Assembly: GCA_020851035.1 (NCBI GenBank)
Contig: JADZDM010000033.1
Span: 1 to 64,000 of the forward strand
Source of the DNA: Gemmatimonadaceae bacterium
GTDB lineage: Bacteria; Gemmatimonadota; Gemmatimonadetes; Gemmatimonadales; Gemmatimonadaceae
Direction of reading: 5' to 3'
DNA: 64,000 nt
A program made the position numbers and the translations under genes. The notes beneath the pieces were generated by a model. The model had not been told where the DNA came from and did no database searches. It saw nothing but the letters and a program-made list of their open reading frames with translations. Positions 15,650-55,427 of this stretch are shown piece after piece; position 1 is the first letter of the stretch, and each line of letters opens with the position of its first letter.

Positions 15650-16366
15650 TCAACCCAGGCTGCGCATGGCGTAGAAGCGCTCGTGCGAGCTCGTCCCGGG
15701 CCGCTTGATCATCTGCCGGTAAGGCCGGCGGATCCGGTTCGTGTCGAGGCCGCGCCAGAACGCGTGGTCATGGAACGTGCCGGCACTCCCGGTCCGCATG
15801 CACTCGGCACGCTCACCGCTCCAGTGCCAGGCGCCGAGCCGGAGCCCGGCCTGGTCCGTGAAGTGCTGGCCCACGAAGCTGGTGTGCGACCAGGTGGGGT
15901 GCGCATCCTGGTATCGCAGCTCGACGATGGCACCGCCATCCGAGTCCGCGCGGGCGGTCAGCGCCACCTCATCGAACTCCAGTCGCAGGGATGGCTCGAG
16001 CATCACCGGCGCCGCGATGTGCTCGAGATCGGCCGCGACGAACGCCTCGGAGTTCGACCAGACGCTGTGGATCAGGAACGAGAATTTCGCATTGGGCATG
16101 GGGAGTGAGAGGTCCGGCGCCACGTGGATCACCGTGAACAGCTCGTCCATCGGTGCCACGCCCGAGGGCCGCGAGTTGTCCGTCATGCGCACCAGCCCCA
16201 CGCTCACCAGCCCCATGCCGGGCCGGACTTCGACCACGGCCAGCGCGGGTGGCGCCAGGCGCTCCAGTGCGTCGAGGTCGGCCTCGAACGTGAAGAAGCG
16301 CTGGTGCGTGATGCGCCAGTCCAGCACCAGCGCACCCCCGCCGAGGATCGTGTACGGTGCCGTCAC
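15650..16366 (-). CDS. Acetoacetate decarboxylase-like superfamily protein
   Basis: This 238-residue protein is the last gene of the biosynthetic operon. The start is a GTG whose last two bases form part of the TGA of the preceding gene (GTGA). The N-terminal region (FFTFEADLDALERLAPPALA) and the strand pattern after it (GLVSVGLVRMTDN, ELFTVIHVAP) resemble the acetoacetate decarboxylase fold. I could not locate the Schiff-base lysine with confidence, so it may be a hydratase, cyclase or aldol-type homologue. Position suggests that it acts on the keto product of the alpha-oxoamine synthase. Confidence 0.55.
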   Translation of the reverse strand: MTAPYTILGGGALVLDWRITHQRFFTFEADLDALERLAPPALAVVEVRPGMGLVSVGLVRMTDNSRPSGVAPMDELFTVIHVAPDLSLPMPNAKFSFLIHSVWSNSEAFVAADLEHIAAPVMLEPSLRLEFDEVALTARADSDGGAIVELRYQDAHPTWSHTSFVGQHFTDQAGLRLGAWHWSGERAECMRTGSAGTFHDHAFWRGLDTNRIRRPYRQMIKRPGTSSHERFYAMRSLG

Positions 16367-17640
16367 TGCCGCATCTCCTGCCGGCCGAAGCCGAAGTGCT
16401 GCGCCGCAGCCGTCAGGTTCGCGGCGCACTGCCGGATCTGTGCGTCGGAGTGCTCGCTGGTGACGAAGAGTCGCACGCGGGCCTCTCCGATCGGCACCGC
16501 CGGGAACTCCATCACGCTGCCATCCTGTCCATGCCGCTGCAGCCAGTCGCCCAGCGGGATGCTGAGCCGTTCGTCGCCGTAGATCACGGGAACCACCCAG
16601 CTCTCGCTCGGGCCGAGGCTCACGTGCGGCGCCAGCAGTGTGCGGAGGAGGCGTGCGTTGTCCCGCACACGCTCGCGGCGCGCGCGTCCATCGGGTGTCA
16701 TGGCCAGCGCCAGTCCCGCGGTCACACCGGCGGTCACCGCCGGGTCGAGCGCGCAGGAGAACATCCGGCAGCGTGCGTACCAGTCCACGTACCGACTCAC
16801 GTCACGGTGTGCGACGAGGGCACCACCCACGCCGCCGAGTGCCTTGCTGAACGTCAGCACGAGGTAGTCCACGTCGGCCAGCACGCCCTGCTCCTCGGCC
16901 ACGCCGCGGCCGTTCGGCCCTGCCACGAGGAACGAGTGGGCCTCGTCCACCAGCACCTGCGCGCCGTGCGCCTTCGCGATCGGGACGAGTTCCCCCAGCC
17001 GCCCGAAGTCGCCGTCGGCGCTGAAGACCCCCTCGGTGCAGACGAGGGTTCGCGTGGCCGCCGGCAGCCCCGCCAGCACCGCCCGCAGGCTGTCCGGGTC
17101 GTTGTGCTCGAAGTAGTGGATGTTGGCCCGCGAGAGCTGCGCGCCCTCGAGGATCGACATGTGGACGGACCGGTCGAGGACGATGTTGTGCCGCCGCTTC
17201 ATCACTGCCGAGATGGTGCCCGAGTTCACGCCGTAGCCGGCGGAGAAGAGCGAGACGCCGCGATCGGGCAGCCCGATGAACTCGAGGAGCCGCGCCTCGA
17301 GCTCGCGATGCAGCTGCAGGGTGCCGGCCTGCACGGGTGAGCTGCATGCCCCGAGTCCGTACTGGTCCAGCGCGCGCTTCGCGGCGGCGATCACCTCGGG
17401 ATGGTAGCCGTAGCCGAGGTAGTTGTACGAGCAGAAGTTCAGGAGCTGCATCCGCTCCCCGGTGGTGCGCTGGACCTGCACGCTCGGGTGCTGGGCGCCC
17501 AGGCGCGCCGTCTCGAAGGCGTAGCGGCCGTCCTGTTCGACGGCACGCACCCACGCGGCGAACCGTGTCGCCTCGGACAGTTCGCCGTCGATGCTGGACA
17601 GGAACATGTCGTACGAGTAGTCGAGATAGTCGTCGGTCAT
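16363..17640 (-). CDS. Alpha-oxoamine synthase, serine palmitoyltransferase/AONS-like (PLP-dependent)
   Basis: This 425-residue fold-type I PLP enzyme belongs to the AONS group (8-amino-7-oxononanoate synthase, serine palmitoyltransferase, 2-amino-3-ketobutyrate CoA ligase). The PLP lysine is Lys266 in LTFSKALGG, the PLP-ring Asp232 and His235 are in VDEAHS, and LLNFCSYNYLGYGYH near residue 66 is closest in style to serine palmitoyltransferases. The family joins an acyl-CoA or acyl-ACP to an amino acid with loss of CO2, giving an alpha-aminoketone. Coupled by ATGA to the upstream reductase gene in an ACP-containing operon, it is likely the chain-release step. The amino acid used cannot be told. 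Confidence 0.9.
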   Translation of the reverse strand: MTDDYLDYSYDMFLSSIDGELSEATRFAAWVRAVEQDGRYAFETARLGAQHPSVQVQRTTGERMQLLNFCSYNYLGYGYHPEVIAAAKRALDQYGLGACSSPVQAGTLQLHRELEARLLEFIGLPDRGVSLFSAGYGVNSGTISAVMKRRHNIVLDRSVHMSILEGAQLSRANIHYFEHNDPDSLRAVLAGLPAATRTLVCTEGVFSADGDFGRLGELVPIAKAHGAQVLVDEAHSFLVAGPNGRGVAEEQGVLADVDYLVLTFSKALGGVGGALVAHRDVSRYVDWYARCRMFSCALDPAVTAGVTAGLALAMTPDGRARRERVRDNARLLRTLLAPHVSLGPSESWVVPVIYGDERLSIPLGDWLQRHGQDGSVMEFPAVPIGEARVRLFVTSEHSDAQIRQCAANLTAAAQHFGFGRQEMRQ

Positions 17641-18458
17641 GGACCCGCCGGTGCGGTGGTGGCGTGGTGGCGCTCGAAGACGTGCGAGATGCCGTCCGAG
17701 AAGACGTTCCCGTGGTCCACCGTCACGGTCTCGCCGGTCACGGCGTCGAGCAGGCCGCTCGCCAGCGCGACCGCGGCCTGCGCGACTTCCTCCGGCGTCA
17801 CGAACCACGCCGGCGGCACCAGGCTGGCGAGGAAGTCGTGGAAGCCTTCGCCGAAGGTGCTGTCGAATGAGGCGGTGCGGACGGCGCGGGATCGCAGGGT
17901 GTTGATCCGCACGCCGTCGTCGCGCAGCCGGTAGGCGAGGTAGCGCACGAGGGTCTCGCCGGCGGCCTTCCCCGCGGCGACGAAGTCGTAGCCCGGCGTG
18001 TAGCGATCAGGGCCGTCGCTGGACATGACGATCACATGCCGCGGGTACCGGCCCCACGCATCGTGCATCGCGCGGAGGTACCCGAAGGTCGGCCACGTGG
18101 TGGCGCGCATGCTCTTCAGGAAGCCGCGCTCGGTGTAGTCCTCGAGGCCGCCGACCACCAGCGCGTTGCTGGCATTGCTGATGAACACGTCGACGGCCAG
18201 CCCGCGTGCCTGCAGCGCGCCGACGAGGGCGCGCGTGTCCGGCTCGCTCGCCGCATCGGCCTGCTGGACCAGCGGCGGGAGCGCGCCGGCCGCAGCGAAC
18301 TGTGCGCCGATGTCCGCCTCGTCGGCACTGCCCCACGCGTGGGTGAGCACGCACTGCGCACCCAGCCGGCCGAACGCCAGTGCTGCAGCCAGCCCGATGC
18401 CGCGCGTGCCGCCGGTGACCAGCACGGTCCGGCCCGCGAAGGGGCGGAACGGAGTCAT
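17637..18458 (-). CDS. FabL-like SDR, putative enoyl-ACP reductase (copy 2)
   Basis: This 273-residue short-chain dehydrogenase has the nucleotide site VTGGTRGIGLA near residue 15. The catalytic Tyr and Lys are spaced Y-x6-K (GYDFVAAGKAAGE), as in enoyl-ACP reductases FabI and FabL, not Y-x3-K as in ketoreductases. It is a paralogue of the SDR at 18712-19512: both share GGTRGIGLA, a WGS motif after beta-2 and the same active-site spacing. Likely role: NAD(P)H reduction of the enoyl thioester made by the operon. It overlaps the ACP gene and the AONS gene by 4 bp each. Confidence 0.8.
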   Translation of the reverse strand: MTPFRPFAGRTVLVTGGTRGIGLAAALAFGRLGAQCVLTHAWGSADEADIGAQFAAAGALPPLVQQADAASEPDTRALVGALQARGLAVDVFISNASNALVVGGLEDYTERGFLKSMRATTWPTFGYLRAMHDAWGRYPRHVIVMSSDGPDRYTPGYDFVAAGKAAGETLVRYLAYRLRDDGVRINTLRSRAVRTASFDSTFGEGFHDFLASLVPPAWFVTPEEVAQAAVALASGLLDAVTGETVTVDHGNVFSDGISHVFERHHATTAPAGP

Positions 18459-18715
18459 CCCGCTGCCGCCTTCTGCTGTGCCGACTCGTGGAAGAGCGTG
18501 ACCAGGCCCTGGATGTCGCGCAACCCGGACAGCTCGCTGCGCGGGACCTTGAGCCGGAGCTCGCGCATCGTGGCCGACACCACCTCCACGATGTCCAGGC
18601 TGTTGGCGCCGTAGTCCTTCATGGAGCGCGACGGGTCGATGGTCTCCGGGGAGAGCCCGTCGACGGCGTTGGCGAGGTGCTTGCGCACGACGGTGAGGAT
18701 CTCGTGCTCGGTCAT
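18455..18715 (-). CDS. Acyl carrier protein, donor-ACP (AcpK-like) type
   Basis: This 86-residue acyl carrier protein has its phosphopantetheine serine at Ser39 in KDYGANSLDIVEV. The GANS-L/V-D form is that of the donor ACP of HMGS cassettes (AcpK of the bacillaene pathway), which carries the acetyl group made by decarboxylating malonyl-ACP. The Trp six residues after the Ser, which marks acceptor ACPs at beta-branching positions, is absent. It lies between the two FabL-like reductases with 4-bp overlaps on both sides. No phosphopantetheinyl transferase gene is in the window, so activation must come from elsewhere. Confidence 0.88.
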   Translation of the reverse strand: MTEHEILTVVRKHLANAVDGLSPETIDPSRSMKDYGANSLDIVEVVSATMRELRLKVPRSELSGLRDIQGLVTLFHESAQQKAAAG

Positions 18716-19512
18716 GACTGGTGCTCCTGGCTGAGGGTGTAGAGCCGGCTGAAGTTGTCGAACACGTGCGCGCCGCCGTCGGCGCGGATGACCTGCCCGC
18801 CCATGCCGTCGAGCCAGCCGGAGCAGAGCGCGAGCACCGCATCCGCCACCACCTCGGGCGTGCTGATGATGCCGGGTGCGCGTTCGGTCACGAACGGGAT
18901 GAAGACCTCGGAGAAGCTCGAGCGCAGCGCCTCGGTGTCGACGAAGCGCGTGCGCACCACGTTCACGCGTGTGCCGCCATCGCGCAGGCGCTGGTGGAGG
19001 TACCGGGCCAGCGTCTCCAGCGCCGCCTTGGACACCGCGACGAGGTCGTACCGGAAGTGGAGGGTCTCGGCCCCCTCGGACGACATGCCGATCACGTAGC
19101 GCGGGGCATGCCCGAACTGGCGGCGCGCTGCCAGCGTGTGGCTCACCAGCGGCCACGCGCTGTACTCGATGCCGGTGAGCAACCCGCGCAGGGTGTACTC
19201 GTCCAGCCCGGCCACCACCGGTGCGAAGGCGACGTTCGACACGAAGGCGTGGAGCGTGGCATGTGTCCGGCCGATCGTCGCCATCACCTGTGCGGTGTCG
19301 TCGTCCACGCGGGCGTCGGCATCGAGGAGCACGGGCGCCGCGAGGCCGTCGGCGGCAAAACTCTCGTGCAGCGTGCGCTCGCTGACCGACCCCCACTTGG
19401 CGGTGATGAAGACGTCGGCGCCACAGCGGCTGAACGCCTTCGCGGTCGCGAGGCCGATGCCGCGCGTCCCACCGGTCACCAGCACCGCCCGCCCGCGATA
19501 GTCAGTCCACAT
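18712..19512 (-). CDS. FabL-like SDR, putative enoyl-ACP reductase (copy 1)
   Basis: This 266-residue short-chain dehydrogenase has VTGGTRGIGLATAKAF near residue 13 and the active-site stretch YDLVAVSKAALETLARYL, i.e. Tyr-x6-Lys. That stretch and FVDTEALRSSF after it closely follow FabL-type enoyl-ACP reductases. It is a paralogue of the product of 17637-18458. Two such enzymes in one operon suggest two distinct enoyl substrates, for example one on a straight and one on a beta-methyl-branched chain, or a heteromeric enzyme. The stop overlaps the ACP start by 4 bp. Confidence 0.82.
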   Translation of the reverse strand: MWTDYRGRAVLVTGGTRGIGLATAKAFSRCGADVFITAKWGSVSERTLHESFAADGLAAPVLLDADARVDDDTAQVMATIGRTHATLHAFVSNVAFAPVVAGLDEYTLRGLLTGIEYSAWPLVSHTLAARRQFGHAPRYVIGMSSEGAETLHFRYDLVAVSKAALETLARYLHQRLRDGGTRVNVVRTRFVDTEALRSSFSEVFIPFVTERAPGIISTPEVVADAVLALCSGWLDGMGGQVIRADGGAHVFDNFSRLYTLSQEHQS

Positions 19513-19514
19513 GG

Positions 19515-20255
19515 TCACCCCGCATAGCCGGACTCGATCCGTGCACGGATCCCCGTGTCGGCGAACGTGACGCGGTGCATGAGGCTCTCGGCCAGGTGGC
19601 TCTCCTGGAACGCGATCCGGCGACGCAGCCCGATGGCGCGCTTGAGCAGCCGCAGGGCGTCCGGTGCATGCGCCGCGATCCGCCGTGCGACGTCCAGCGC
19701 GCGCGGCAGCACCTCGTGCGACGGCAGCACATGGTTGATGCCACCCGTGCCGCGCAGCGCGCTGCCACGCCGCAGCTCGCCGGTGTAGAGCAGCTCGTGC
19801 GCGAGCGCCGGCGAGAGCACGTGTTCCAGCAGGCGCGTGCTGCCCATCCCCGGCGTGAAGCCCATCGACAGGAAGGGCAGGCCGTAGCGCGCGTCTGCGG
19901 CCAGGCACACCACGTCCGCGCACAGGCCGAGCGCGAACCCGCCGCCGACACCATGTCCCTGCATCGCGGCGATCACGGGCACGGGAAAGGCAAGCACGTC
20001 CTCGGCCAGCCGGATGTCGCCCGGTTCGTGGCGCTGCGCCGCCAGCGCCAGGAGCAGGTCGCGCGGTGCACCGGAGCAGAAGCTGGCGCCGCGGCCCGTC
20101 AGCACCAGCGCGGCAAGGTCGTCGCGCCCGCCGAGGTCGCGCAGCGTGGCCGACAGCGCCTGCACCATCGGGACCGACAGCGCGTTCCCGGTGCCCGGGT
20201 CATCCAGCGTGAGTGTCGCGACGCCGTCCTCGATCGCGACCTGCAGCAGGGTCAT
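19515..20255 (-). CDS. Crotonase-fold decarboxylase ECH2 (PksI-like)
   Basis: This 246-residue enoyl-CoA hydratase-fold protein has the oxyanion-hole segments FCSGAPRD and GHGVGGGFALGLCADVV. The segment MGFTPGMGST is characteristic of ECH2 enzymes of HMGS cassettes (PksI, CurF-type), which decarboxylate 3-methylglutaconyl-ACP to leave a beta-methyl branch. It sits directly after ECH1 and HMGS genes, in the standard cassette order. ATG 20255 overlaps the ECH1 stop (ATGA); another ATG at 20261 is possible. The position of the double bond left after decarboxylation cannot be predicted. Confidence 0.87.
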   Translation of the reverse strand: MTLLQVAIEDGVATLTLDDPGTGNALSVPMVQALSATLRDLGGRDDLAALVLTGRGASFCSGAPRDLLLALAAQRHEPGDIRLAEDVLAFPVPVIAAMQGHGVGGGFALGLCADVVCLAADARYGLPFLSMGFTPGMGSTRLLEHVLSPALAHELLYTGELRRGSALRGTGGINHVLPSHEVLPRALDVARRIAAHAPDALRLLKRAIGLRRRIAFQESHLAESLMHRVTFADTGIRARIESGYAG

Positions 20256-20977
20256 GTCCATGGCGCCTCGCCATCGAGGTAGCGCTGCAGGCGGCGTTGC
20301 GTCGACGGCCGGGCCACCAGTGCGGCGGTGATGCTGCCGCCTTCGAGAATGGCCTCGCGAAGCGGGCGCGACGCCTGCCGGCGCCGCCAGGTGCGGAGCG
20401 GTGCCAGGCAGGTCGCATCACCACGGGCGACGCTGCGCACGAGTTGCCTGACGGCCTGCTCCAGCGCGTGCACCGGCACGATCCGGTCGATCAGCCCGAT
20501 GCGGAGTGCCTCCGCCGCATCGATCGAATGGCCCTGCAATGCCAGCGCCTCCAGTGCGCGGCCTGCCACCCGGTCGCTCAGGACCGGCCAGATGGAGGCG
20601 GGGAAGAAGCCCCACAGCAGCTCCGGCAGGGCGAACGTCGCGCGTGGCGTGGCCAGCACCACATCACACGCGGCCGCGAAGCCCACACCACCGCCGATGG
20701 CGGCGCCATCCACCGCGGCCACCCGCGGGACCGGCAGTTCCGTCAGCAGCACGAGGAGGTCCGCGAAACGCTGCAGGGAGCGGCGCGCCGCGTCGGGATC
20801 CGCCGACGCTGCCGCCTGTTCGAGGGACAAGCCGCGGCAGAAGGTGGTGCCCGGGGCATGCCCGCTGAGGACGAGCACCCGGCCGTCCGGCTCGCCGAAC
20901 GCCACCTCGAGCGCGCGCAGTGAGGTCGCGTCGAACTCGGCGGGCAGTGCGATCACCCTCGCGTGGCTCAGCTCCAT
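20252..20977 (-). CDS. Crotonase-fold dehydratase ECH1 (PksH-like)
   Basis: This 241-residue crotonase-fold protein has CRGLSLEQA as the first oxyanion element and AIGGGVGFAAACDVVLAT as the second. The stretch ALPELLWGFFPASIWPVL is very like PksH-type ECH1 enzymes, which dehydrate HMG-ACP to 3-methylglutaconyl-ACP. Its 5' end overlaps the HMGS-like gene by 10 bp and its stop overlaps the ECH2 start. Context and sequence agree. Confidence 0.87.
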   Translation of the reverse strand: MELSHARVIALPAEFDATSLRALEVAFGEPDGRVLVLSGHAPGTTFCRGLSLEQAAASADPDAARRSLQRFADLLVLLTELPVPRVAAVDGAAIGGGVGFAAACDVVLATPRATFALPELLWGFFPASIWPVLSDRVAGRALEALALQGHSIDAAEALRIGLIDRIVPVHALEQAVRQLVRSVARGDATCLAPLRTWRRRQASRPLREAILEGGSITAALVARPSTQRRLQRYLDGEAPWT

Positions 20978-22200
20978 GCGTACTCCCGCACGTAGTCCCG
21001 GATGCCGCGCAGGACCAGGCGTCCCGTGCCGGCGTAGTGTGTCTCGTACAGGCCTGGGAGCACCGCGCGGACCGGCACGTGCGCGGGCTTGTGCATCGCA
21101 CCGTGGAGGGCGAGCTCGCAGGCCTCGTACTCGGCGATGGACAACGCTCGCCGTGCGTCGAGGGCGGCGTCGATGTGCAGCGCCTGCGCGACTCGCTGGC
21201 TCGAGGCGGTGGTGCGCATACCGTAGAACTCGGCGCACGAGCCGGAGCCGTACGCATAGACGCCAACGCGCGCGCCCGGCGCGGGCGGGTGTTCAGCCAG
21301 CAGCGCGGCGAGCGCGACGAAGGTGCTGGCCCCGTAGATGCCGCCAAGTCGCCGGGTGTAGCGCAACGAGGGTGCCGACTTGCGGGCCCAGTGCTCCCGC
21401 GCTGCAGTGCGTGACAGCCCCAGCGCCTGCTGCGCCAGGCGCATGTGTGCGCGCTCGGCCAGGCCACCGAACGGCACGTGGTAGATGTGTGCCGCGAAGT
21501 GCCGCTCGAAGTCGATCGGCGCGCCCCACTTCCGTTCGTAGTCCGCGTACGTCTCGGCCACGCCATCGAGGTAGGACGCCAGGCTGGTCTCGGCGTCGCC
21601 CGTCTCCACCCCCGGCGCCGGGCGGAAGATGTCTGCGGTCTCGTGGGCGAAGACACCGGAGGCTGCCCCCTCGAACTCCGCCAGCTGCACGTGCCGGCTG
21701 ATCAGCACTGCGGCGGCGCCCGCACCCAGCACCGGCTCCTGCACGCCATGCAGCCCGAGGAGGGCGTGGTCGGCATTGATCACCAGCACGCGGGCGTCCG
21801 GGTCCGGGTCGCTCACGACCAGCCGCCGCGCGACCTGCACGGCGGCCGTGGCGCCGTAGCACGCGTGCTTGACCTCGAAGTTGCGGCAGTCGGAGGGAAG
21901 GTCGAGCAGCCGGTGCACCCAGGAGCTCACCGGCTTCTCCTGGTCGATGGCGCTTTCCGTCGCCACCATGAGCCACCGGATGTGCGGTCGGGTGACCGGC
22001 GTGACGAGCCGGCGTGCGGCGTTCACGGCCAGCGTCACCACGTCGTCGAACGGGCTGAGCACCGTGCGCTCACGGCAGTGCAGCCGCCGCACGAAGTTGT
22101 CGGCGTCCAGCCCGCGTGCGTCGCACAACTGGCCGATGTCCAGCGCCAGTGTACCGACGTCGACGCCGAGGCCCTCGATCCCCACCGGACCCGCGCTCAA
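20968..22200 (-). CDS. HMG-CoA synthase-like beta-branching enzyme (PksG/HMGS-like)
   Basis: This protein of about 410 residues is in the HMG-CoA synthase family. The nucleophile is Cys114 in FEVKHACYGATAA, the general base Glu82 is in VATESAID, and His241 in IYHVPFGG completes the triad. In beta-branching cassettes this enzyme adds acetate from donor ACP to the beta-keto group of an acyl-ACP; in the mevalonate pathway it makes HMG-CoA. The operon (donor ACP, ECH1, ECH2) supports the first. Start: a TTG at 22200 overlapping the TGA of the ketoreductase gene (TTGA); TTG 22209 or GTG 22185 are alternatives. Confidence 0.9.
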   Translation of the reverse strand: MSAGPVGIEGLGVDVGTLALDIGQLCDARGLDADNFVRRLHCRERTVLSPFDDVVTLAVNAARRLVTPVTRPHIRWLMVATESAIDQEKPVSSWVHRLLDLPSDCRNFEVKHACYGATAAVQVARRLVVSDPDPDARVLVINADHALLGLHGVQEPVLGAGAAAVLISRHVQLAEFEGAASGVFAHETADIFRPAPGVETGDAETSLASYLDGVAETYADYERKWGAPIDFERHFAAHIYHVPFGGLAERAHMRLAQQALGLSRTAAREHWARKSAPSLRYTRRLGGIYGASTFVALAALLAEHPPAPGARVGVYAYGSGSCAEFYGMRTTASSQRVAQALHIDAALDARRALSIAEYEACELALHGAMHKPAHVPVRAVLPGLYETHYAGTGRLVLRGIRDYVREYAWS

Positions 22201-22940
22201 TGAAACCAATCGAGGCCTCCGGTGACGCCCAGCGCCTGGCCGTTCACGAAGGATCCCCCCTCACCGGCCAGGTAGAGCACCGCGGCGCCGACGTCGTCGG
22301 GTCGTCCGATGCGACCGACCGGGCAGTGCGCGGCGTAGAAGTCGCGCTTCTGCTGCGACAGCTCGGCCGCCGTCATGTCCGTCTCGAACAGCGAGAGGAG
22401 CAGGGCGTTGCTGGTGATGTTCTTGCGGCCATACTCCTTCGCCACCGCGGCCGACAGCCCCAGGAGGCCCGCCTTGCTGGCGCAGTAGGCGACGTCGCCA
22501 GCCATGCCATGCGCGGCGATCGACGAGATGTAGATGAACCGGCCGAAGCCACCTGAGAGGAACACCGGCAGGAAGGCGCGCGTGAGGTAGAAGGCACTGG
22601 TGAGGTTGGTGTCGATCACGTTCTGCCACTGCTCGTTCCCGAGCGAGAACGTCATGCCTGCACAGGTCACGGCGGCATTCGCGACGACCGCCTGCACGCC
22701 GCCGAACTCGTCGCTCACCGTCTCGGCCACCGCATCGACGGCGTCACTGCTGCGGACATCGAGCTGGTAGGCTTCGCAGCGCACGGCCGGATGTGCCACG
22801 CGGATCTCGTCGCGCAGGCGTGCTGCCGCGGCGCCGCGCGTGTGCCAGGTGAAGGCCACGTCATGTCCGTGCGCAGCGGCGTGCCGCACCAGCCCGGCGC
22901 CGATCCCACGCGATCCGCCCGTGATGAAGAGGACGCTCAT
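22197..22940 (-). CDS. SDR ketoreductase, FabG-like
   Basis: This 247-residue short-chain dehydrogenase has FITGGSRGIGAG at the N-terminus, the structural motif ANAAV, catalytic Ser in IYISSIAAHG, and Tyr-x3-Lys in VAYCASKAGL. This is the 3-oxoacyl-ACP reductase pattern, distinct from the two Y-x6-K reductases of the same operon. It should reduce the beta-keto group after each ketosynthase step. Coupled at both ends: its ATG overlaps the ketosynthase stop (ATGA) and its TGA overlaps the TTG of the HMGS-like gene. Confidence 0.87.
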   Translation of the reverse strand: MSVLFITGGSRGIGAGLVRHAAAHGHDVAFTWHTRGAAAARLRDEIRVAHPAVRCEAYQLDVRSSDAVDAVAETVSDEFGGVQAVVANAAVTCAGMTFSLGNEQWQNVIDTNLTSAFYLTRAFLPVFLSGGFGRFIYISSIAAHGMAGDVAYCASKAGLLGLSAAVAKEYGRKNITSNALLLSLFETDMTAAELSQQKRDFYAAHCPVGRIGRPDDVGAAVLYLAGEGGSFVNGQALGVTGGLDWFH

Positions 22941-24217
22941 GCGTCGTACCGCCGCCAGAGCGCGACGGAGTTGATGCCGCCGAAGCCGAACGAGTTCTTC
23001 AGGCAGAGCGGGGTGTCCACCGCCACGTTGCCGTCGCGACACACGTCGAGGTCCACCTCCGGATCGAGCGTGTCGATGTTGATGGACCGGTGCAGCCGCC
23101 GTGAGCGGAGTTGCAGGATGGCGGCGACCGTCTCGACGGTGGGCGCGGCCCAGCAGGTGTGGCCAAGCATCGACTTCGGGGCATTGATGTGGAGCGACCT
23201 GGCGTGTGCACCGAAGACGCGCTTGATCGAGCGCAATTCGGTGAGGTCGCCGAGTGGCGTGGACGTGGCGTGGGCATTGATGTAGCCGACCTCCGCCGGG
23301 TGCACGCCCGCCTGGTGCAACACGTCCCGCATCAGGCGCGCCTGCCCGTCCTCCGAGGGTTGCGGCAAGTGGTTGCCGTCGGCGTTCGCCCCCACTGCCA
23401 GCACCTCGGCGTAGATGCGTGCTCCCCGCGCGCGCGCTGCGTCGTGCTCCTCGAGCACGAGCGTCGCCCCGCCGTGGGACGGCACGAACCCTTCGCGGCG
23501 CGTGTCGTAGGGCCGGCTCGCGAGCGACGGTGTCTCGTTGAAGCTCTCGTGGGAGATCGCCCCCATCAGCGCCATGGCATGCACGTCGATCGGCGCGAAC
23601 TCGAGGACGGCGCCGACGACGATCGCCGCCTGCATCCCATGGTGCCGGATCTCGTCGACGGCGCTGCGCAGCGCCACGTTGCCGCTGGCACAGGCGGCCC
23701 CCATGGTGTAGATCGGCCCGCCGACCTGCAGCACCTCCGACACCGATCCCGCGTGGTCGGTGTCGAGCGAGTACAGCGACGTCATGCCGTCGAGGAAGTC
23801 CGGCTCGTCCTCGAAGCGCAGCCGCGAGTCGTACTGGTACAGGCCGTTGATGTTGTGCCCCGCGACGATGGCGGCGACTCGCATCCGGTCGACGGGGGCA
23901 TCGAACAGGCCGGCGTCGAGGTAGCCGTCGACGGCCAGCAGGCAGGAGAGGCCGGTGGACCACGGCACCCGTCCCACCAGCCGGCGGAGCCGGCGATGGA
24001 CATCGTCGGGCACCTGGGTGCGCAGCGCCTCGACGCGGGCGGTGACGTCGTACGCCGACAGGTCACCGCCGACCTTCGAGTAGATCCGGTCAGTGGGGAA
24101 GGCACGCCACCGCGTGATCGCGGAGCGGCCGGCGTACAGCGCGTCGCTGAACCCCGCCAGGGTGTCGCCGAGCGGCGTGTTGACGCTCATGCCGGTGAGC
24201 ACCACGCGCCTAGTCAT
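22937..24217 (-). CDS. Beta-ketoacyl synthase (stand-alone KS with intact Cys-His-His)
   Basis: This 426-residue ketosynthase of the thiolase fold has nucleophile Cys176 in MGAACASGN, His316 in NAHATSTPLGD and His353 in PKSMLGHTCWAA. The full triad predicts real chain elongation. This matters because the KS of typical HMGS cassettes (PksF-type) has lost the cysteine and only decarboxylates malonyl-ACP. It is a single polypeptide of FabF size with no fused domain. Its stop overlaps the ketoreductase start, and its start lies inside the 3' end of the dehydratase gene. Confidence 0.9.
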   Translation of the reverse strand: MTRRVVLTGMSVNTPLGDTLAGFSDALYAGRSAITRWRAFPTDRIYSKVGGDLSAYDVTARVEALRTQVPDDVHRRLRRLVGRVPWSTGLSCLLAVDGYLDAGLFDAPVDRMRVAAIVAGHNINGLYQYDSRLRFEDEPDFLDGMTSLYSLDTDHAGSVSEVLQVGGPIYTMGAACASGNVALRSAVDEIRHHGMQAAIVVGAVLEFAPIDVHAMALMGAISHESFNETPSLASRPYDTRREGFVPSHGGATLVLEEHDAARARGARIYAEVLAVGANADGNHLPQPSEDGQARLMRDVLHQAGVHPAEVGYINAHATSTPLGDLTELRSIKRVFGAHARSLHINAPKSMLGHTCWAAPTVETVAAILQLRSRRLHRSINIDTLDPEVDLDVCRDGNVAVDTPLCLKNSFGFGGINSVALWRRYDA

Positions 24218-24731
24218 CGGCGAGCACCTCGGACACGGCGCAGGCCGCGAGCGTGGACCCGAGCCAGGCCTGCGTCGCGGCGACCATGGTGTAGTCCCAC
24301 TCGACGATCGATGCGAGCAGCGTGACGTGGTGGCCTGGCCGCAGCGGTGCGAGGAAGGCCGCGTCGTGGATCCGGATGGCGCGCACCCGCAGCGGGGGCA
24401 GCGCCGCAGGAACGTCGTGTGTGTGGCGGCCGCAGAAGTGGAGCAGGGTGAGCGCCAGCTGCCCCATCGCCTCCACCGTCAGCGCGCCGGGAAACACCGG
24501 ATCACCGGGGAAGTGACCCGTGAACAGTGGCCAGGTGGGGTCCAGCGTCACCGACCCGCGCACTGCGCGCCGGCCGAGGTCGAGGCGATCGATCCCGTCG
24601 ACGAAGAGGAACGGCGCGCGATGTGGCAGCAACTGCTCGATGGCCTGCCGGCCGTGGGCGACGGCGACGCCGGCGTCAGCCGTGAGCAGCGGGTCACGCC
24701 GCAGCGCGCGGTGCTGTGTCTCAGTGAGCAT
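24210..24731 (-). CDS. Hotdog-fold dehydratase, FabZ/FabA-like
   Basis: This 173-residue hotdog-fold protein has LLPHRAPFLFVDGI at about residue 34 and FTGHFPGDPVFPGALTVEAM, which holds the catalytic His and, in VEAMGQ, the acidic residue. This is the FabZ arrangement of 3-hydroxyacyl-ACP dehydratases. In the operon it should supply the enoyl thioester for the FabL-like reductases. ATG 24731 is chosen; the acyltransferase stop lies 11 bp inside the gene. Confidence 0.85.
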   Translation of the reverse strand: MLTETQHRALRRDPLLTADAGVAVAHGRQAIEQLLPHRAPFLFVDGIDRLDLGRRAVRGSVTLDPTWPLFTGHFPGDPVFPGALTVEAMGQLALTLLHFCGRHTHDVPAALPPLRVRAIRIHDAAFLAPLRPGHHVTLLASIVEWDYTMVAATQAWLGSTLAACAVSEVLADD

Positions 24732-25665
24732 GGCGAAGTGCTCGCATGGTCGACTCGAAGTGCTCGGTCGGCGTGGTGTCATGGTCGGTGGCATGGCGCG
24801 CCACCGGCATCCAGGGCTTGCGGAGCAGGTTGTGCAGCACGCGTCCGGGCCCGACCTCCACGAAGCGGGCGTCGGGATGCATCGCGCGGAGACGCTCCAT
24901 CGACTGCCGCCAGCACACGGCGTGCGTCACGTGCCGCGTGAGCCGGTCCACCAGGTCCGCCGGTGTTGGGGAGGGCAGGGGCACCGCGTCGACATTCGGC
25001 AGGTAGACGCCGGCACCGCTGCGCCACGGTGCCGCGCGCAGGTGCTGCTGCAGCACCGGCGCAACCGGGGCGAAGAGTTCGCAGTGCATCGGCAGGCGCG
25101 GCTCGACCAGCACGGCGTCGCCGCACAGATCGTCCCGCACGTGGGCCGCCGCCCACGCGATGGCCGCCGCATCGCCCGCCAGCACGTGCTGGGTCGGCGA
25201 GTTGTGGTTGCTGACGAACAGCCGGCCATGCTGGCGCGCGGCCGGCAGCAGTGCCGCCAGCTCCGCCTCGGTCACGGGGAACACCGTGAGCATCTGCCCG
25301 CGCGGGCCAGCGTCATAGGCGCGTCCGCGTGCACTGACGAGCCGCAGGGCGTCGGTCCACTGCAGCGCGCCGATGTGCACCAGGTGCGCGTATTCCCCCA
25401 GGCTCATGCCGCACGACACGTCGCCCGCGATGCCCCGCTGCTGCACGGCGCGCAGGTGCAACAGGGTGCAGAGGAACACCGACACCTGTGTCTGCCAGTT
25501 GCTGCGGGGGGCACCAGCCAGAGGCGATTCGACGCGCTGGCCGAGGACCTCCGCCGCGTCGCGCAGCAGTCGGGCTCCCCCGTCGGCGAGGTGCGTCGCC
25601 CGCTCCAGCATGCCTGGAACGAGCGAGCTCTGGCCCGGGAACATGAAGACGGTGACTGGCGGCAC
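24721..25665 (-). CDS. Acyltransferase (malonyl-ACP transacylase, FabD/trans-AT-like)
   Basis: This 314-residue protein begins with FMFPGQSS, has nucleophile Ser88 in CGMSLGEYAH (the residue before the Ser is Met rather than the usual His) and catalytic His194 in LPMHCELF. An Arg in LVSARGRAY is where malonyl-specific enzymes bind the carboxylate. It should load malonyl onto the ACP. It is the first gene of the operon. A GTG at 25665 is the most plausible start because the fold begins eight residues later; ATG 25644 lies within the first strand and the open frame above has no protein-like content. Confidence 0.85.
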   Translation of the reverse strand: MPPVTVFMFPGQSSLVPGMLERATHLADGGARLLRDAAEVLGQRVESPLAGAPRSNWQTQVSVFLCTLLHLRAVQQRGIAGDVSCGMSLGEYAHLVHIGALQWTDALRLVSARGRAYDAGPRGQMLTVFPVTEAELAALLPAARQHGRLFVSNHNSPTQHVLAGDAAAIAWAAAHVRDDLCGDAVLVEPRLPMHCELFAPVAPVLQQHLRAAPWRSGAGVYLPNVDAVPLPSPTPADLVDRLTRHVTHAVCWRQSMERLRAMHPDARFVEVGPGRVLHNLLRKPWMPVARHATDHDTTPTEHFESTMRALRHAH

Positions 25666-26011: not shown

Positions 26012-26575
26012 ATGCCAGAGCGAGATGGTCCGATCACCGATCTGCTGAGCCGGTGGCGTGCCGGCGACGCGACCGCGCTCGAACAGCTGCTCCCGATCGT
26101 GTACGACGACCTGCGGCGCGGAGCGGCGGGACAGCTCCGCGGCGAGGCGCCGGGCCACACCCTGACCCCGACGGACGTCGTGCACGAGGCCTATCTCCGC
26201 CTCGTCCGGGCCGAGGTCGAATGGCAGGATCGGGAGCACTTCTTCGCGATGGCGTCCACCGCCATGCGCCGGATCCTCGTCGAGCATGCGCGCCGGCGAC
26301 TGTCGGCCAAGCGCGGCGGTGCGCAGGCGACCATCCCGATCGACAGCCTGCAACTTGCGGCGCCGACCACCGACGAACGATTGCTGGCGCTGGACGAGGC
26401 GCTGACCACGCTCGCGACGATCGAGCCGCGCCTCGCCCGCGTGATCGAATGCCGCTTCTTCCTCGGCATGACGGAAACCGAGGCGGCGGCGGCGCTCGGC
26501 GTCACGGACCGCACCGTCCGCCGCGACTGGATCAAGGCGCGCGGGTGGCTCAAGGTCACGCTCGATGGACCCTGA
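26012..26575 (+). CDS. ECF-type RNA polymerase sigma factor
   Basis: This 187-residue sigma-70-like factor has region 2 with ATALEQLLPIVYDDLRRGA and HTLTPTDVVHEAYLRLV, and region 4 with FLGMTETEAAAALGVTDRTV and the recognition helix ending RDWIKARGWL. Size and sequence fit the ECF group (TIGR02999 type) that is usually encoded next to a Ser/Thr kinase. The kinase gene does follow, overlapping by 11 bp. The gene is divergent from the twelve-gene biosynthetic operon, but a regulatory link is only inference. ATG 26012 gives the family's usual length. Confidence 0.9.
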   Translation: MPERDGPITDLLSRWRAGDATALEQLLPIVYDDLRRGAAGQLRGEAPGHTLTPTDVVHEAYLRLVRAEVEWQDREHFFAMASTAMRRILVEHARRRLSAKRGGAQATIPIDSLQLAAPTTDERLLALDEALTTLATIEPRLARVIECRFFLGMTETEAAAALGVTDRTVRRDWIKARGWLKVTLDGP

Positions 26576-28805
26576 CCGCGGACCGTGGGCGCGTGCCCAT
26601 GCCATCGTCGACGCCGCGCTCGACCAGCCGGCGGACCGGCTCGACGCATTCCTGAGCGACGCCTGCGCCGGCGATGCCGCGCTCGAGTCACGTGTGCGGC
26701 AGTGGCTCTTCGGCATCCAGGCCGCTGCCGCCGATCCCCCGTCGGTGCTGGGCGGGTATCGCCACGCGCCGGCGGAGCCGGTGGGCAGCGCCCCCGACCG
26801 GATCGGGCACTACCGCATCGTGCGCATCCTGGGCACCGGGGGCATGGGCACCGTCTTCGAGGGCGAACGCGACGACGGCACCTTCCGGCACCGGGTCGCG
26901 ATCAAGATGATGCGGCCGGCGATCGCGGGGAGCGGCGAGTTCGTCCAGCGGTTCAACGACGAGCGCCAGATCCTGGCGTCGCTGTCACATCCCAACATCG
27001 CCGGCCTGCTGGACGGCGACGTGACCGCCGACGGTGTGCCGTACTGCGTGCTGGAATACGTCGAGGGGCACACGCTGACGGGGTGGTGTGATGCGCGTGG
27101 CCTCGACCTGCGGGGGCGGATCGCGCTCGTCCGGCAGGTGTGCGGCGCGGTCGGTCACGCGCACACCCGGCTGGTCGTGCATCGCGACATCAAGCCGAGC
27201 AACGTGCTCGTCACGGACGACGGCGTCGTGAAGCTGCTCGACTTCGGCATCGCGCGGCTGATCGACGACTCCGGGGAGCATGCGGCCATCACGCGCCCCG
27301 ATGGCTGGCCCGCCGCGATGACGCCCGAGTACGCCAGTCCCGAGCAGTTCCGTGGCGCCCCGCTCGGCGTGGCAACCGATGTGTACAGCCTCGGCGTGGT
27401 CCTCCACGAGCTCCTCACCGGGGCTCGCCCGTTCCCGGCGGCGCGCGGCTGGCTGGCGCTGCACGATGTCGTGACGCACCAGGAGGCTCCGCTCGTGTCG
27501 TCGGCACCGATCACGCCGGACGACGCGCGCCATCGCGGAGCCTCGGTCACCGCGTTGCGGGCGTTGCTGCGTGGTGATCTCGATTGCGTGGTGGCGCGTG
27601 CGCTCGCGCGCGACCCGGCGCGGCGCTATCGCTCCGTCGACGAACTCGACGCGGACCTCATGCGCTACCTCGCCGGAGAACCGGTGCAGGCGCGCAACGG
27701 CGGGCGCGGGTACCACATCCGGAAGTTCGTCTGGCGCAACCGGGTCGCCGTCGGCGCCGCGGTGATCGCGGCCGTGACGATCCTCACCGCCTCGCTCACG
27801 GCGGTGCTGCAGGCGCGCCGGCTGGCAGCGGTGTCGTCGCAGGCGATGCTGGAGCGGAACGCTGCCCTCGACCTGTCGCGCGTGATGCTCGGTTTCCTCG
27901 AGCTCTCGTGGCCCTGGGATTCCGGCGGGACGACGCGGGCATTACGGCCCCTCCTCGACAGTGCAGGGTCGCGGCTGCTCGATCCGGCTGGCCAGCTCGG
28001 ATCCCGCTATCCCTACCTCCTGCAGTCACTTGCCAGCGGGTACCTCGGGCTGGGTGACTACCCGCGTGCGCTGGCCGTGGAACAACGCGTGCTGCAGCTC
28101 CTCGAGGCACGTGGCGCGCCGCGGGACACACTCGGCCTGGCACGCATGCGAGTGGCGGAATCGCTGCGGCAGTCCGGCCGGACCGACGAGGGACTCGCGC
28201 TCTCGGCGCAGGCGATCGCCGACCTCATGCCGACGCATCCTGTGCTGGTGACCCGACTCCGCATCGCGCGCGCGCGCGGGCTGCGACGTGTCGACCGCGC
28301 GCCTGAGGCCAGTGCGTCACTCGACACGGCCATGCGATCGCTCATGCGCGACTCGACCGGGACGCAGTTGACGCAGGCGAGCGTCTGGGAGGTGCGGGCC
28401 GAACTGGCGCTCGACGCCGGCGAGCTGGATCGCGCCGCCACCTGTTTCCGCCGCTCGCTCGACCTCCGGCTCACGGCGCGGGCGCCGGCGCTGGAGATCG
28501 GCAACGGCTACGGTGACCTCGGCAAGATAGCGCTGCGGCAGGGCGACATCCGCGGCGCGGACTCGCTCGTCACCACCGCCATCGAGCGGAAGAGCGCCGC
28601 AGTGGGACGGGCACATCCCGAGGTGGCCGATGAGGTGGCATCGCTGGCGCAGGTCCGGCTGCGACAGCGTCGCGGGGCGGAGGCGCTCCTCCTGCTCGAG
28701 GAGGCGCTCACCGTCTACCGTGGCGTTGGACGGCAGTCACGGATCGACGGGATCGTGCCCCTGCGCGACTCGCTCCGCAGCGCGCTCCGCGCGGGACGGT
28801 CGTAG
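26565..28805 (+). CDS. Membrane Ser/Thr protein kinase with TPR-type extracytoplasmic domain
   Basis: This 746-residue protein has a Hanks-type kinase domain at about residues 84-370: glycine loop ILGTGGMGTVFEG, VAIKMM lysine, VVHRDIKPSNVL and LLDFGIARL all intact. A transmembrane helix follows at about 390-415 (VAVGAAVIAAVTILTASL). The C-terminal 330 residues are alpha-helical and TPR-like (for example YLGLGDYPRALAVEQRVLQL). Kinases of this type in Gemmatimonadetes, Acidobacteria and Planctomycetes are paired with the kind of ECF sigma factor found just upstream, whose activity they are thought to control. Confidence 0.92.
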   Translation: MDPDRGPWARAHAIVDAALDQPADRLDAFLSDACAGDAALESRVRQWLFGIQAAAADPPSVLGGYRHAPAEPVGSAPDRIGHYRIVRILGTGGMGTVFEGERDDGTFRHRVAIKMMRPAIAGSGEFVQRFNDERQILASLSHPNIAGLLDGDVTADGVPYCVLEYVEGHTLTGWCDARGLDLRGRIALVRQVCGAVGHAHTRLVVHRDIKPSNVLVTDDGVVKLLDFGIARLIDDSGEHAAITRPDGWPAAMTPEYASPEQFRGAPLGVATDVYSLGVVLHELLTGARPFPAARGWLALHDVVTHQEAPLVSSAPITPDDARHRGASVTALRALLRGDLDCVVARALARDPARRYRSVDELDADLMRYLAGEPVQARNGGRGYHIRKFVWRNRVAVGAAVIAAVTILTASLTAVLQARRLAAVSSQAMLERNAALDLSRVMLGFLELSWPWDSGGTTRALRPLLDSAGSRLLDPAGQLGSRYPYLLQSLASGYLGLGDYPRALAVEQRVLQLLEARGAPRDTLGLARMRVAESLRQSGRTDEGLALSAQAIADLMPTHPVLVTRLRIARARGLRRVDRAPEASASLDTAMRSLMRDSTGTQLTQASVWEVRAELALDAGELDRAATCFRRSLDLRLTARAPALEIGNGYGDLGKIALRQGDIRGADSLVTTAIERKSAAVGRAHPEVADEVASLAQVRLRQRRGAEALLLLEEALTVYRGVGRQSRIDGIVPLRDSLRSALRAGRS

Positions 28806-52870: not shown

Positions 52871-53803
52871 CTACAGCCGAATGCCCGTCTCGCGCGAGGT
52901 CTGGAAGATCAGCACGTCGGCCGGCATCGCCTTCGCCAGGCGCAGCCATTCCAGCCAGTCGATGTTGTTGTCCTTCGGTGACTCCAGCTCGCCCAGGTGG
53001 TAGATCGGGACCGTGGGGTGCAGGTGATGCAGGCCGTGGCGCTCGGAGTTGTAGAACAGGAACTTCGCCACGAACCGCGGATAGATCACGTTGCGCGCAT
53101 AGCGCCCCTGCTCGCTGTACCGGAACGCCTTCACCTCGGCCCCCGCGGCGTAGTTCGCGTCCACGTGCACGTGCTGCGTGAGCAGCACCGGGTCACTGAA
53201 GCTCAGGAACAGCAGCAGCGCCGGCACCCAGTGCACCAGCATGAAGCGCGGGGCCAGCACCAGCGCCGGCACGTAGATTATCATCAGGAACAGCACGCTG
53301 AACAGGTTGCGCCGGCGGCTGCGCGGGTCGGGGAACAGCTCGTTCACCCGCTTGAGGTTCCAGAAGTTCATCGCCACGAACGTTGCCGCGAACACCGGAA
53401 TCCAGAAGCGCCAGCAGAAGTTCATCACCCGCGTCAGCGTCGGCGTCGGCTGCCGGAACTGCGAGCTCGGGTCCGACGGATCCTTGTCCTTCCACCCCGA
53501 CCAGATGTGATGGTGGTGGTGCATCTGCCGCCAGCTGAAGAACGGCATCAGGCAGAACACCGAGCTCACGTGCCCGAGCAGCGCGTTGAGCCAGCGCGTG
53601 CGGAAGAAGCCGCCGTGCGCGAAGTCGTGGTGCAGCACGAACCACTGGAACAGGTTCACGGCCAGCAGCACCTGGCCCAGCAGCCAGAGTGGCCACGCAT
53701 CCTGCACCGACAGCGCGATGGCACAGGCGGTGAACGCGAGCTGCCACGCCACGATCGCGGTCGCCCAGCCGTTGCTGCTCGCGAGCGTCACCTTCTCAGC
53801 CAT
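52871..53803 (-). CDS. Fatty acid desaturase
   Basis: This 310-residue membrane protein has the three histidine boxes of membrane-bound desaturases/hydroxylases: LHHDFAHGG, WRQMHHHHHIWSG and SERHGLHHLHP, and four hydrophobic segments. It should introduce a double bond or hydroxyl in a lipid acyl chain using oxygen and a ferredoxin-type donor. It is the last gene of the overlapping operon with the GH3, GNAT and radical SAM genes; its ATG lies within the end of the GH3-like gene. Confidence 0.87.
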   Translation of the reverse strand: MAEKVTLASSNGWATAIVAWQLAFTACAIALSVQDAWPLWLLGQVLLAVNLFQWFVLHHDFAHGGFFRTRWLNALLGHVSSVFCLMPFFSWRQMHHHHHIWSGWKDKDPSDPSSQFRQPTPTLTRVMNFCWRFWIPVFAATFVAMNFWNLKRVNELFPDPRSRRRNLFSVLFLMIIYVPALVLAPRFMLVHWVPALLLFLSFSDPVLLTQHVHVDANYAAGAEVKAFRYSEQGRYARNVIYPRFVAKFLFYNSERHGLHHLHPTVPIYHLGELESPKDNNIDWLEWLRLAKAMPADVLIFQTSRETGIRL

Positions 53804-55427
53804 GCTGCCGCTCCCCGGTCACGGTTCCTGCGCGCGGCACACCCACCAGGGTGCGCGGCTTGATGTCGCCCAATCGCATCCGCTCGCGCGCCGGCCGGGC
53901 CAGGTGTGGTCCGCCGGAGACGAGGGTCACGCGCAATGATGCCAGCTGCCCGAGCCGCCGCGCCAGTGCGTAGTGCGGGTTCGCGCGCAGCAGGTCGTCC
54001 AGCCGTGCGGCGAGTTCCGCCGCCGGCGCCTGACTCGTCCCGGCCGACAGTCGCAGCTCGTACCAGGCCGCGCCCCCCGACTGCATGGCGTGCAGCTCCG
54101 CCAGCTCCGGCGCCTCGCCCGTTCCCGTGACGTCCCACAGTGCGCGGAGGCACCCGGCCACGAACGGCTCGGCGAGTTTCTCGCCACGCAGGTCACTCAC
54201 GTTGCCCGTCCGGCCGAGGAACCGCAGCGACGGCGCAGCGCCAAGGTGTCCGGCACACTCCACGACGTCGCCCAGCCGGTAACGCCAGAGCCCGGCGCCG
54301 TTGGTCACCACCACCTCGTACTCCCCGCCATCCTCGAGTTCATGCGCCAGCCGGAAGCTGCCGCCATCGTCCAGGAACTCGAAGAAGTGCGACGTGAGCG
54401 CCACCGGGTACGCGCCATGCACCGGCACCGTCACCACCGCCTCGGTGGCGAGCAGCCCCTTCGACTGCACCAGCACGCCGGGCAACCGCCGTTCCAGCGC
54501 CGCGTGCCCAGCGGCGGCCGCCTGGTCACCCCAGCAGCTCACCACCTGCAGTGCCGGCCACCACCGCGGCCATTGCTCGGCACCGATGTGGCGGAGCGCC
54601 CGTGCGCGCGCGGCGTTCGCGGGCGCACGCCAGGCCGCGCGGCTCGCCGGCGGCAACGCATCACCCCACGGCAGCGTGCCGAACGCGATGGCATCGAGCA
54701 GCTGGTCCCAGTGGCGCGGTGCGGCGCTCACCAGCAGTTCCAGGAACGACGGATGCCAGACGGAGATCAGTCGCAGCTCCGCCTGGCGCAGCATCGCCAA
54801 CAGCGTGAGGCACCGGAACGCCTCCTCGTCACGCACATGCCGCACCGAGGCCGGCACGGCCATCACCTGTCGCACCAGTGTCCCGGCCCAGCCACCGAGG
54901 TACTCCGCGTCATCCGCGAAGCCCACCCGCACGCCACCCGGCGCGGGCAGTGCGTCGTCGGCGTCGCTGAGTGGGGACACCGACCAGTACGCCGGCCCGC
55001 CGAGCAGTGCCGGCCGGGCGCGCACCAGGTCAGCCATCCAGGCACTCACTGCCGTCGCGAACGACGCCTGCAGCCCTGCCGTGAACGGGACCAGCTTCCG
55101 TGCGCCGGACGATCCGCTCGTCGGGGCCAGGTGTGTCACGGGGGCGGCCGTGAGCAGGTTCCGGTCGCCGGCCTGGATGCGCGGAATCCAGCCGGCGAGA
55201 TCCGACGCATCGGAGAGCGGCACGGTGCGCGCGAAGTCGGCCGGTGTGCGCAGCGCTGCGAATTCGTACCGGCGGCCGTACTCGCACCCCGCGTGACGCG
55301 CGAGCGCCGCGGCGAGCCACGCTGCCTGCGCTTCCGCGGGCGCGTGCAATGCGCGAGCGAATCGGCGCGAGGCTGTGATCCCACTCGCCAGCCAGAGTGT
55401 GTTCACCAGCGCGCTCTGCGGCCTCAT
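53796..55427 (-). CDS. GH3-family acyl-amido synthetase-like protein
   Basis: This 543-residue protein of the GH3 (auxin-responsive) adenylating family has the nucleotide motif THLAPTSGSSGARKLVPFT, then YWSVSPLSDAD and GAGLWRYRLGDVVECAG, with LRFLGRTGNVSDLRGEKL near the end. Plant GH3 enzymes adenylate a carboxylic acid and join it to an amino acid. Bacterial members are less studied. Here it would activate a fatty or other acid made by the operon and amidate it. Its ATG overlaps the stop of the upstream GNAT-like gene (ATGA). Confidence 0.85.
   Translation of the reverse strand: MRPQSALVNTLWLASGITASRRFARALHAPAEAQAAWLAAALARHAGCEYGRRYEFAALRTPADFARTVPLSDASDLAGWIPRIQAGDRNLLTAAPVTHLAPTSGSSGARKLVPFTAGLQASFATAVSAWMADLVRARPALLGGPAYWSVSPLSDADDALPAPGGVRVGFADDAEYLGGWAGTLVRQVMAVPASVRHVRDEEAFRCLTLLAMLRQAELRLISVWHPSFLELLVSAAPRHWDQLLDAIAFGTLPWGDALPPASRAAWRAPANAARARALRHIGAEQWPRWWPALQVVSCWGDQAAAAGHAALERRLPGVLVQSKGLLATEAVVTVPVHGAYPVALTSHFFEFLDDGGSFRLAHELEDGGEYEVVVTNGAGLWRYRLGDVVECAGHLGAAPSLRFLGRTGNVSDLRGEKLAEPFVAGCLRALWDVTGTGEAPELAELHAMQSGGAAWYELRLSAGTSQAPAAELAARLDDLLRANPHYALARRLGQLASLRVTLVSGGPHLARPARERMRLGDIKPRTLVGVPRAGTVTGERQHG

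Follow-up and report, generated by a model that had tools for sequence, protein, structure and literature searches.

In Pseudomonas fluorescens MYb115, SgaAB couples an iterative type I polyketide synthase (PKS) to an alpha-oxoamine synthase (AONS) that resembles serine palmitoyltransferase (SPT), and makes sphinganines (PMC12134224). The bacterial ceramide pathway comprises SPT, the ceramide synthase CerS (CC_1154/YghO), CerR (CC_1164), AcpR and AasR, and draws acyl chains from the fatty-acid pool via AasR (PMC11324152, PMC9386255). Here we describe a twelve-gene operon from a Gemmatimonadaceae bacterium, encoded on the minus strand at positions 15650-25665 of a 64,000-nucleotide stretch of contig JADZDM010000033.1, the whole of which we call the window. 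Read 5' to 3', the operon encodes an acyltransferase (AT), a dehydratase (DH), a ketosynthase (KS), a ketoreductase (KR), a 3-hydroxy-3-methylglutaryl synthase (HMGS), the crotonase-family enzymes ECH1 and ECH2, a short-chain dehydrogenase/reductase (SDR-A), an acyl carrier protein (ACP), a second such reductase (SDR-B), an AONS and a protein resembling acetoacetate decarboxylase (ADC-like). We consider it likely that these genes form a self-contained, dissociated (type II) beta-branching acyl synthase that feeds the AONS to give a methyl-branched aminoketone.

The SgaAB(C) PKS-sphingolipid pathway is the closest to the operon in logic. Each pairs a dedicated polyketide or fatty-acyl synthase with an AONS, which in the Sga pathway is SPT-like and yields sphingoid bases and in the operon has SPTs as its nearest solved structures; the KDSR-like gene of the Sga cluster has counterparts near some relatives of the operon. 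SgaA, however, is one iterative type I protein, whereas all enzymes of the operon are discrete; no beta-branching cassette has been described there, whereas the operon has a built-in HMGS-ECH1-ECH2 set and terminating enzymes of two exchanged clades. With the HMGS (HCS) cassettes of PKS clusters, such as PksG/H/I and CurD/E/F, the operon shares homologous HMGS, ECH1, ECH2 and a donor-type ACP, catalytic residues included. Unlike them, it has no modular PKS, retains the KS cysteine, includes AT, DH, KR and two candidate enoyl reductases (ERs), and ends in an AONS. The ceramide pathway is similar in that CerS-like and CerR-like genes are linked to relatives of the operon that carry a second type of AONS (AONS2), and in that an ACP-bound acyl chain would feed the AONS; it differs in that a dedicated branching synthase is encoded here and that the window genome has no CerS match. 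Prodigiosin-type clusters, represented by a Thioclava homologue (L102) with 34% similarity to the window's type of AONS (AONS1), have an ACP-AONS fusion like that of one relative, but they lack the beta-branching set, and in the AONS tree AONS1 groups with AONS2 and not with the Thioclava protein. We found no report linking HMGS beta-branching with SPT in the literature searched, which did not extend to subscription journals.

Recurrence of the operon and its terminating enzymes

The operon HMGS was used as the query for a first scan of 84,980 species genomes, and selected genome sets were then searched with profiles. The scan returned 12 loci, five of which (L007-L010 and L015) carry the same gene set in the same order, with 42-57% identity to the window for HMGS and 59-73% for KS. 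The profile searches placed the cluster in 3/396 genomes of the Acidobacteriota set and, in a shorter form, in G465, in ~12/379 genomes of a phylum of mostly large, GC-rich genomes (that of G302), in 2/347 genomes from the order of a Hyphomicrobiales genome (Alphaproteobacteria), and in one genome of the Chlamydiota set. In total, ~19 related clusters were found in these four groups, and their gene order is nearly always the same; the named relatives are mostly metagenome assemblies, and L076-L095 take their phylum names, where they have any, from the locus that defined each set. The sequence-only reading had proposed recurrence of the set in conserved order, away from any modular PKS, as its check, and the outcome was positive in several phyla. 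That the order is kept in such distant genomes excludes a chance assembly of genes. Within the window's own phylum the cluster occurs in only 1/298 genomes, which points to spread by horizontal transfer.

In 16/20 clusters, the window included, AT-DH-KS-KR-HMGS-ECH1-ECH2-SDR form a complete and uninterrupted core; in L085 the AT has been relocated. The two SDR candidates are encoded as a single frame of 565-576 residues in L083 (1330-3027), L084 (12144-13856) and L093 (12223-13953), and this joint frame suggests that the pair works together. Another stand-alone arrangement of HMGS, ECH, KR, SDR and DH genes, with or without ACP and KS, occurs in a different order in Chlamydiota and one other genome (L017 2610-10203, L089 9110-19999 and L094 9164-14050); it has its own HMGS clade, and no AONS was seen in the stretch read.

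The AONS proteins of the clusters fall into two clades. AONS1, found in the window, L015, L081 and L085, shows 57-65% identity to the window protein, and AONS2, with 14 members, shows 32-39%. The ADC-like gene is present in 4/4 AONS1 clusters and in no other cluster read. L015 has both AONS types, and its AONS1 carries an N-terminal ACP fusion. AONS1 is monophyletic (100/100), yet in a tree of five core proteins the window groups with AONS2-bearing Acidobacteriota clusters (100/100), and forcing the AONS1-bearing cores together is rejected (approximately unbiased test, p = 7e-102; L076, L079 and L082, with no AONS in the stretch read, were placed in the non-AONS1 group). From this conflict between trees, we conclude that core and terminator have been swapped relative to one another. 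The solved structures nearest to the window AONS1 are those of serine palmitoyltransferases, and the protein stays below the SPT, BioF and KBL model cut-offs; the only other AONS of the window genome groups with Kbl.

Genes for ceramide formation accompany the AONS2-type relatives. YghO and Caulobacter CC_1154 are grouped as dihydroceramide N-acyltransferases (PMC9386255; PMC11324152), and a GNAT-type gene, whose copy in L079 scores 34.5% against Escherichia coli YghO, adjoins seven clusters (L010, L079, L080, L083, L084, L087 and L093). Thus a YghO/CC_1154-type ceramide synthase is linked to seven AONS2-type or related clusters and a CerR-type epimerase to four, the latter being seen only beside L079, L083, L084 and L093. 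Other neighbors are a CDP-alcohol phosphotransferase in L010 and in L086, the latter of which also has a KDSR-like SDR, and a fatty-acid hydroxylase in L008 and L009. Beyond these clusters, the CerS-like gene on Streptomyces and Rubrobacter plasmids has an AONS on one side and an epimerase or oxidoreductase on the other, as in the order SPT-CerS-CerR, and in Roseomonas its neighbors are LptF/LptG, a sterol-desaturase-family gene and a CDP-alcohol phosphotransferase. Given the CerS-like, CerR-like and other lipid genes linked to them, we consider it most likely that the AONS2 clusters serve sphingolipid synthesis and bring a branching acyl synthase of their own. The earlier suggestion of a sphingoid-like lipid or signal is therefore well supported in these relatives; for the window itself it is an extrapolation. 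A row of AMP-ligase-like, ACP-like and CerS-like genes adjoining the cluster at L080 2351-5742 resembles Caulobacter aasR-acpR-cerS, the ligase and ACP being identified by reading the sequence only.

Beta-branching enzymes and competing explanations

The operon HMGS finds its best matches in PksG, CurD and 8s81, at 212-227 bits compared with ~160 bits for mevalonate HMGS, and a tree splits it from Acidobacteriota mevalonate HMGS with full support; we assign it to the PKS type and not to the mevalonate type on these comparisons. In PksI, His230 is catalytic and conserved (PMC7501309). His228 of the operon ECH2 lines up with this residue, and ECH2 passes the PksI-type NCBIfam model. Other cassette traits present in the operon are the Glu, Cys and His residues of HMGS, the C-terminal His of ECH2 and a dedicated donor-type ACP, which is 48-54% identical to the ACPs adjoining PKS-linked HMGS in L011-L013 and has the motif GANSLD. 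A decarboxylating KS lacking the active Cys, also typical of cassettes, is not among them. The active Cys is kept in the KSs of 20/20 stand-alone clusters and replaced by Met, Ala or Ser in five classical-type cassette KSs (L005, L016, L088, L092 and L095), "classical" being a label from gene context as read and not from a full check of every PKS-linked locus.

The homology of HMGS, ECH1, ECH2 and ACP to the cassette proteins of PKS clusters, and the presence of two modular KS-containing genes in the genome (contigs C12 and C21), could be taken to mean that the operon holds an ordinary HMGS cassette modifying a modular PKS encoded elsewhere. A family search for modular PKSs in the window genome found five KS genes, two of them modular, and both of the latter are nonribosomal peptide synthetase (NRPS) hybrids with a single PKS module and their own AT domain. 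Because these are the only modular KS genes, no trans-AT PKS for the cassette to serve is visible to this search. No modular PKS is adjacent in the stretches read around the ~19 syntenic relatives either, where AT, DH, KR, two ERs and usually AONS are kept in order, and the operon KS retains the Cys that classical cassette KSs have lost. We rejected the helper explanation on the family search and the hybrids' own AT domains, and regard it as very improbable. A role of HMGS and the ECH enzymes in mevalonate, leucine or isovaleryl-CoA metabolism at the CoA level, by accident beside fatty-acid synthase (FAS) genes, has a precedent in the AIB-type route of Myxococcus from 3-methylglutaconyl-CoA to dimethylacrylyl-CoA (PMC7756340). 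It is contradicted by the placement of HMGS in the PKS-type clade, distant from the Acidobacteriota mevalonate enzymes, by the dedicated donor-type ACP, by an ECH2 above the PksI-type cut-off and by the fact that every relative keeps FAS genes within the operon; bit scores and tree led us to reject the mevalonate role, and we give it slightly less credence still. The sequence-only reading had named a modular PKS just past the window that uses the cassette, or HMGS and ECH genes that phylogeny returns to mevalonate or leucine metabolism, as grounds for abandoning its claim, and we found neither. The retained KS Cys, the PKS-type HMGS, the lack of any visible PKS served by the cassette and the syntenic relatives together argue for a type II beta-branching acyl synthase over a PKS helper cassette.

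More room is left for a different kind of product, although we still think it unlikely: a short cyclised aminoketone, such as a pyrrole, a dihydropyrazine or a similar signal or pigment, in place of a membrane sphingoid. The chain released by AONS1 would be short and branched, either beta-keto or acyl, with the ADC-like protein acting as a cyclase or dehydratase, a route to which, as part of this explanation, we give the same low weight. In line with it, the ADC-like gene always accompanies AONS1 (window, L015, L081 and L085) and ceramide genes never do in the stretches read; the L015 AONS1 has an N-terminal ACP like the ACP-AONS of prodigiosin-type clusters; and the best plasmid match of AONS1 is an ACP-AONS protein in Thioclava, whose prodigiosin type is read from gene neighbors. 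The AONS tree, with few reference proteins, nevertheless puts AONS1 nearer AONS2 than prodigiosin-type AONS, and a full reductive set with two ERs suggests a reduced chain. The window genome has no match to a ceramide synthase, which also fits the short product and leads us to expect that the window operon probably makes an aminoketone other than the sphingolipids of its relatives.

Several observations weigh against a self-contained synthase with a sphingoid-type product. The missing ceramide synthase is one, since the sphingolipid reading of the relatives does not transfer directly to the window. In addition, L087 and L090 have no AT and one SDR only, and L078 (7563-14676) has HMGS but no AT and no ECH1/ECH2 between HMGS and SDR; it may be a degraded copy or depend on enzymes encoded elsewhere. 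A Trp after the Ser flags acceptor ACPs. The operon ACP has no such Trp and groups with donor ACPs, which bears on its recognition as acceptor by HMGS; a single ACP may serve as donor and acceptor alike, or a housekeeping ACP may contribute.

Gene content and surroundings

Overlaps of 4-11 bp occur at 10/11 gene junctions, and the operon is accordingly predicted to be translationally coupled. The twelve genes listed in the sequence-only reading stand in position, strand and family, as does their description as overlapping, apart from an 11-bp gap between KR and HMGS. Pfam or NCBIfam models back the family of each gene except the ADC-like one, and all assigned catalytic motifs, earlier called nearly all intact, are intact and kept across relatives; the ADC family, with no conserved lysine, is the exception. 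The discrete malonyl-type AT (24721-25665) matches Pfam PF00698 (Acyl_transf_1) at 36 bits and has the GxSxG Ser, the RG Arg and the PMH His, motifs kept in 17 clusters. It is followed by the FabA/FabZ hot-dog DH (24210-24731; GHFPGDPVFPGALTVE; PF07977, 54 bits, and motif comparison) and the FabF-type KS (22937-24217), a ketoacyl-synt protein with an intact Cys-His-His set whose best NCBIfam model is PRK07103 (PksF-like). The KR (22197-22940) is a FabG-type SDR with an S-YxxxK motif, and the PKS-type HMGS (20968-22185) matches the N- and C-terminal HMG_CoA_synt models. ECH1 (20252-20977), a dehydratase by its ECH_1 match and motifs, precedes ECH2 (19515-20261), a decarboxylase that also matches ECH_1 and lies above the cut-off of NCBIfam PRK07110. 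SDR-A (18712-19518) and SDR-B (17637-18458), previously labeled ER, are FabI-like and FabI/FabL-like candidates with the enoyl-reductase Y-x6-K in place of the YxxxK of KR. Between them lies the ACP (18455-18715; PP-binding; GANSLDIVE), related to cassette donor ACPs. AONS1 (16363-17640), the terminating enzyme, is a pyridoxal phosphate (PLP)-dependent member of the BioF/SPT superfamily (Aminotran_1_2; VDEAHS, TFSK). The operon thus has the discrete AT, KS, KR, DH, ER and ACP of a type II fatty-acid synthase. None of its 12 genes encodes a KASIII (FabH) starter enzyme, and three ACP_syn_III_C matches lie elsewhere in the genome.

The ADC-like gene (15650-16366), confined to AONS1-type clusters, scores 21.6 bits with Pfam against a cut-off of 29.8. 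The four homologues have no invariant lysine that could form the Schiff base of an acetoacetate decarboxylase, so the protein is unlikely to be a Schiff-base decarboxylase. A profile of these four found no credible relative in the PDB, no plasmid homologue was found, and structure prediction of the protein from two sequences gave a mean pLDDT of only 29.

On one side the operon is flanked by a convergent TonB receptor gene; upstream lie a divergent ECF sigma factor and a Ser/Thr kinase (26012-28805). The L008 cluster likewise has a gene similar to the window kinase upstream, and a sigma-like gene precedes the L007 cluster. At 52871-60079, on the minus strand, the window has a second biosynthetic-looking cluster with a fatty acid desaturase, a GH3-family protein, two B12-binding radical SAM enzymes and two proteins with no Pfam match.

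Proposed pathway and significance

The pathway that we propose, including its chemistry, product, branch position and the part of the ADC-like protein, is deduced from gene families and motifs. AT would charge the single ACP with malonyl groups, and KS would condense them and probably also make acetyl-ACP by malonyl decarboxylation. HMGS would add this acetyl onto a beta-ketoacyl-ACP, and dehydration by ECH1 followed by decarboxylation by ECH2 would give a beta-methyl-enoyl-ACP. One FabI-like SDR may reduce this intermediate while the other reduces the ordinary enoyl intermediates arising from KS, KR and DH. The methyl-branched acyl thioester would then pass to the AONS for decarboxylative condensation with serine, alanine or glycine, yielding an alpha-aminoketone, either a sphingoid-type long-chain base or a shorter analogue. 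In the simplest version, acetoacetyl-ACP would be converted to an isovaleryl-ACP starter, a step within established beta-branching chemistry, and elongated to an iso-branched chain; alternatively, the methyl branch could be internal or at the final beta position. The core would act as a transferable module, joined to AONS2 and ceramide-forming enzymes in relatives and to AONS1 in the window, where the ADC-like protein probably modifies the AONS1 product, for example, and this is a guess, by cyclising or dehydrating it.

On a wider scale, the clusters may represent a hitherto undescribed and widely scattered class of dissociated beta-branching lipid synthases that hand methyl-branched acyl-ACP straight to interchangeable AONS enzymes, with beta- or iso-branched sphingolipids in one clade and a new aminoketone-derived metabolite in the AONS1/ADC clade, a proposal on which we are evenly divided. 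If true, HMGS beta-branching would extend beyond PKS tailoring and serve a compact, mobile lipid synthase as its core, and branched sphingoid bases could be obtained independently of branched amino acids. It also predicts new sphingolipid producers among Acidobacteriota, Alphaproteobacteria, Chlamydiota and the phylum of large-genome bacteria. At 10 kb, the operon is compact enough for direct expression, and the terminator swap provides a natural experiment in which one acyl synthase would have been redirected toward different products.

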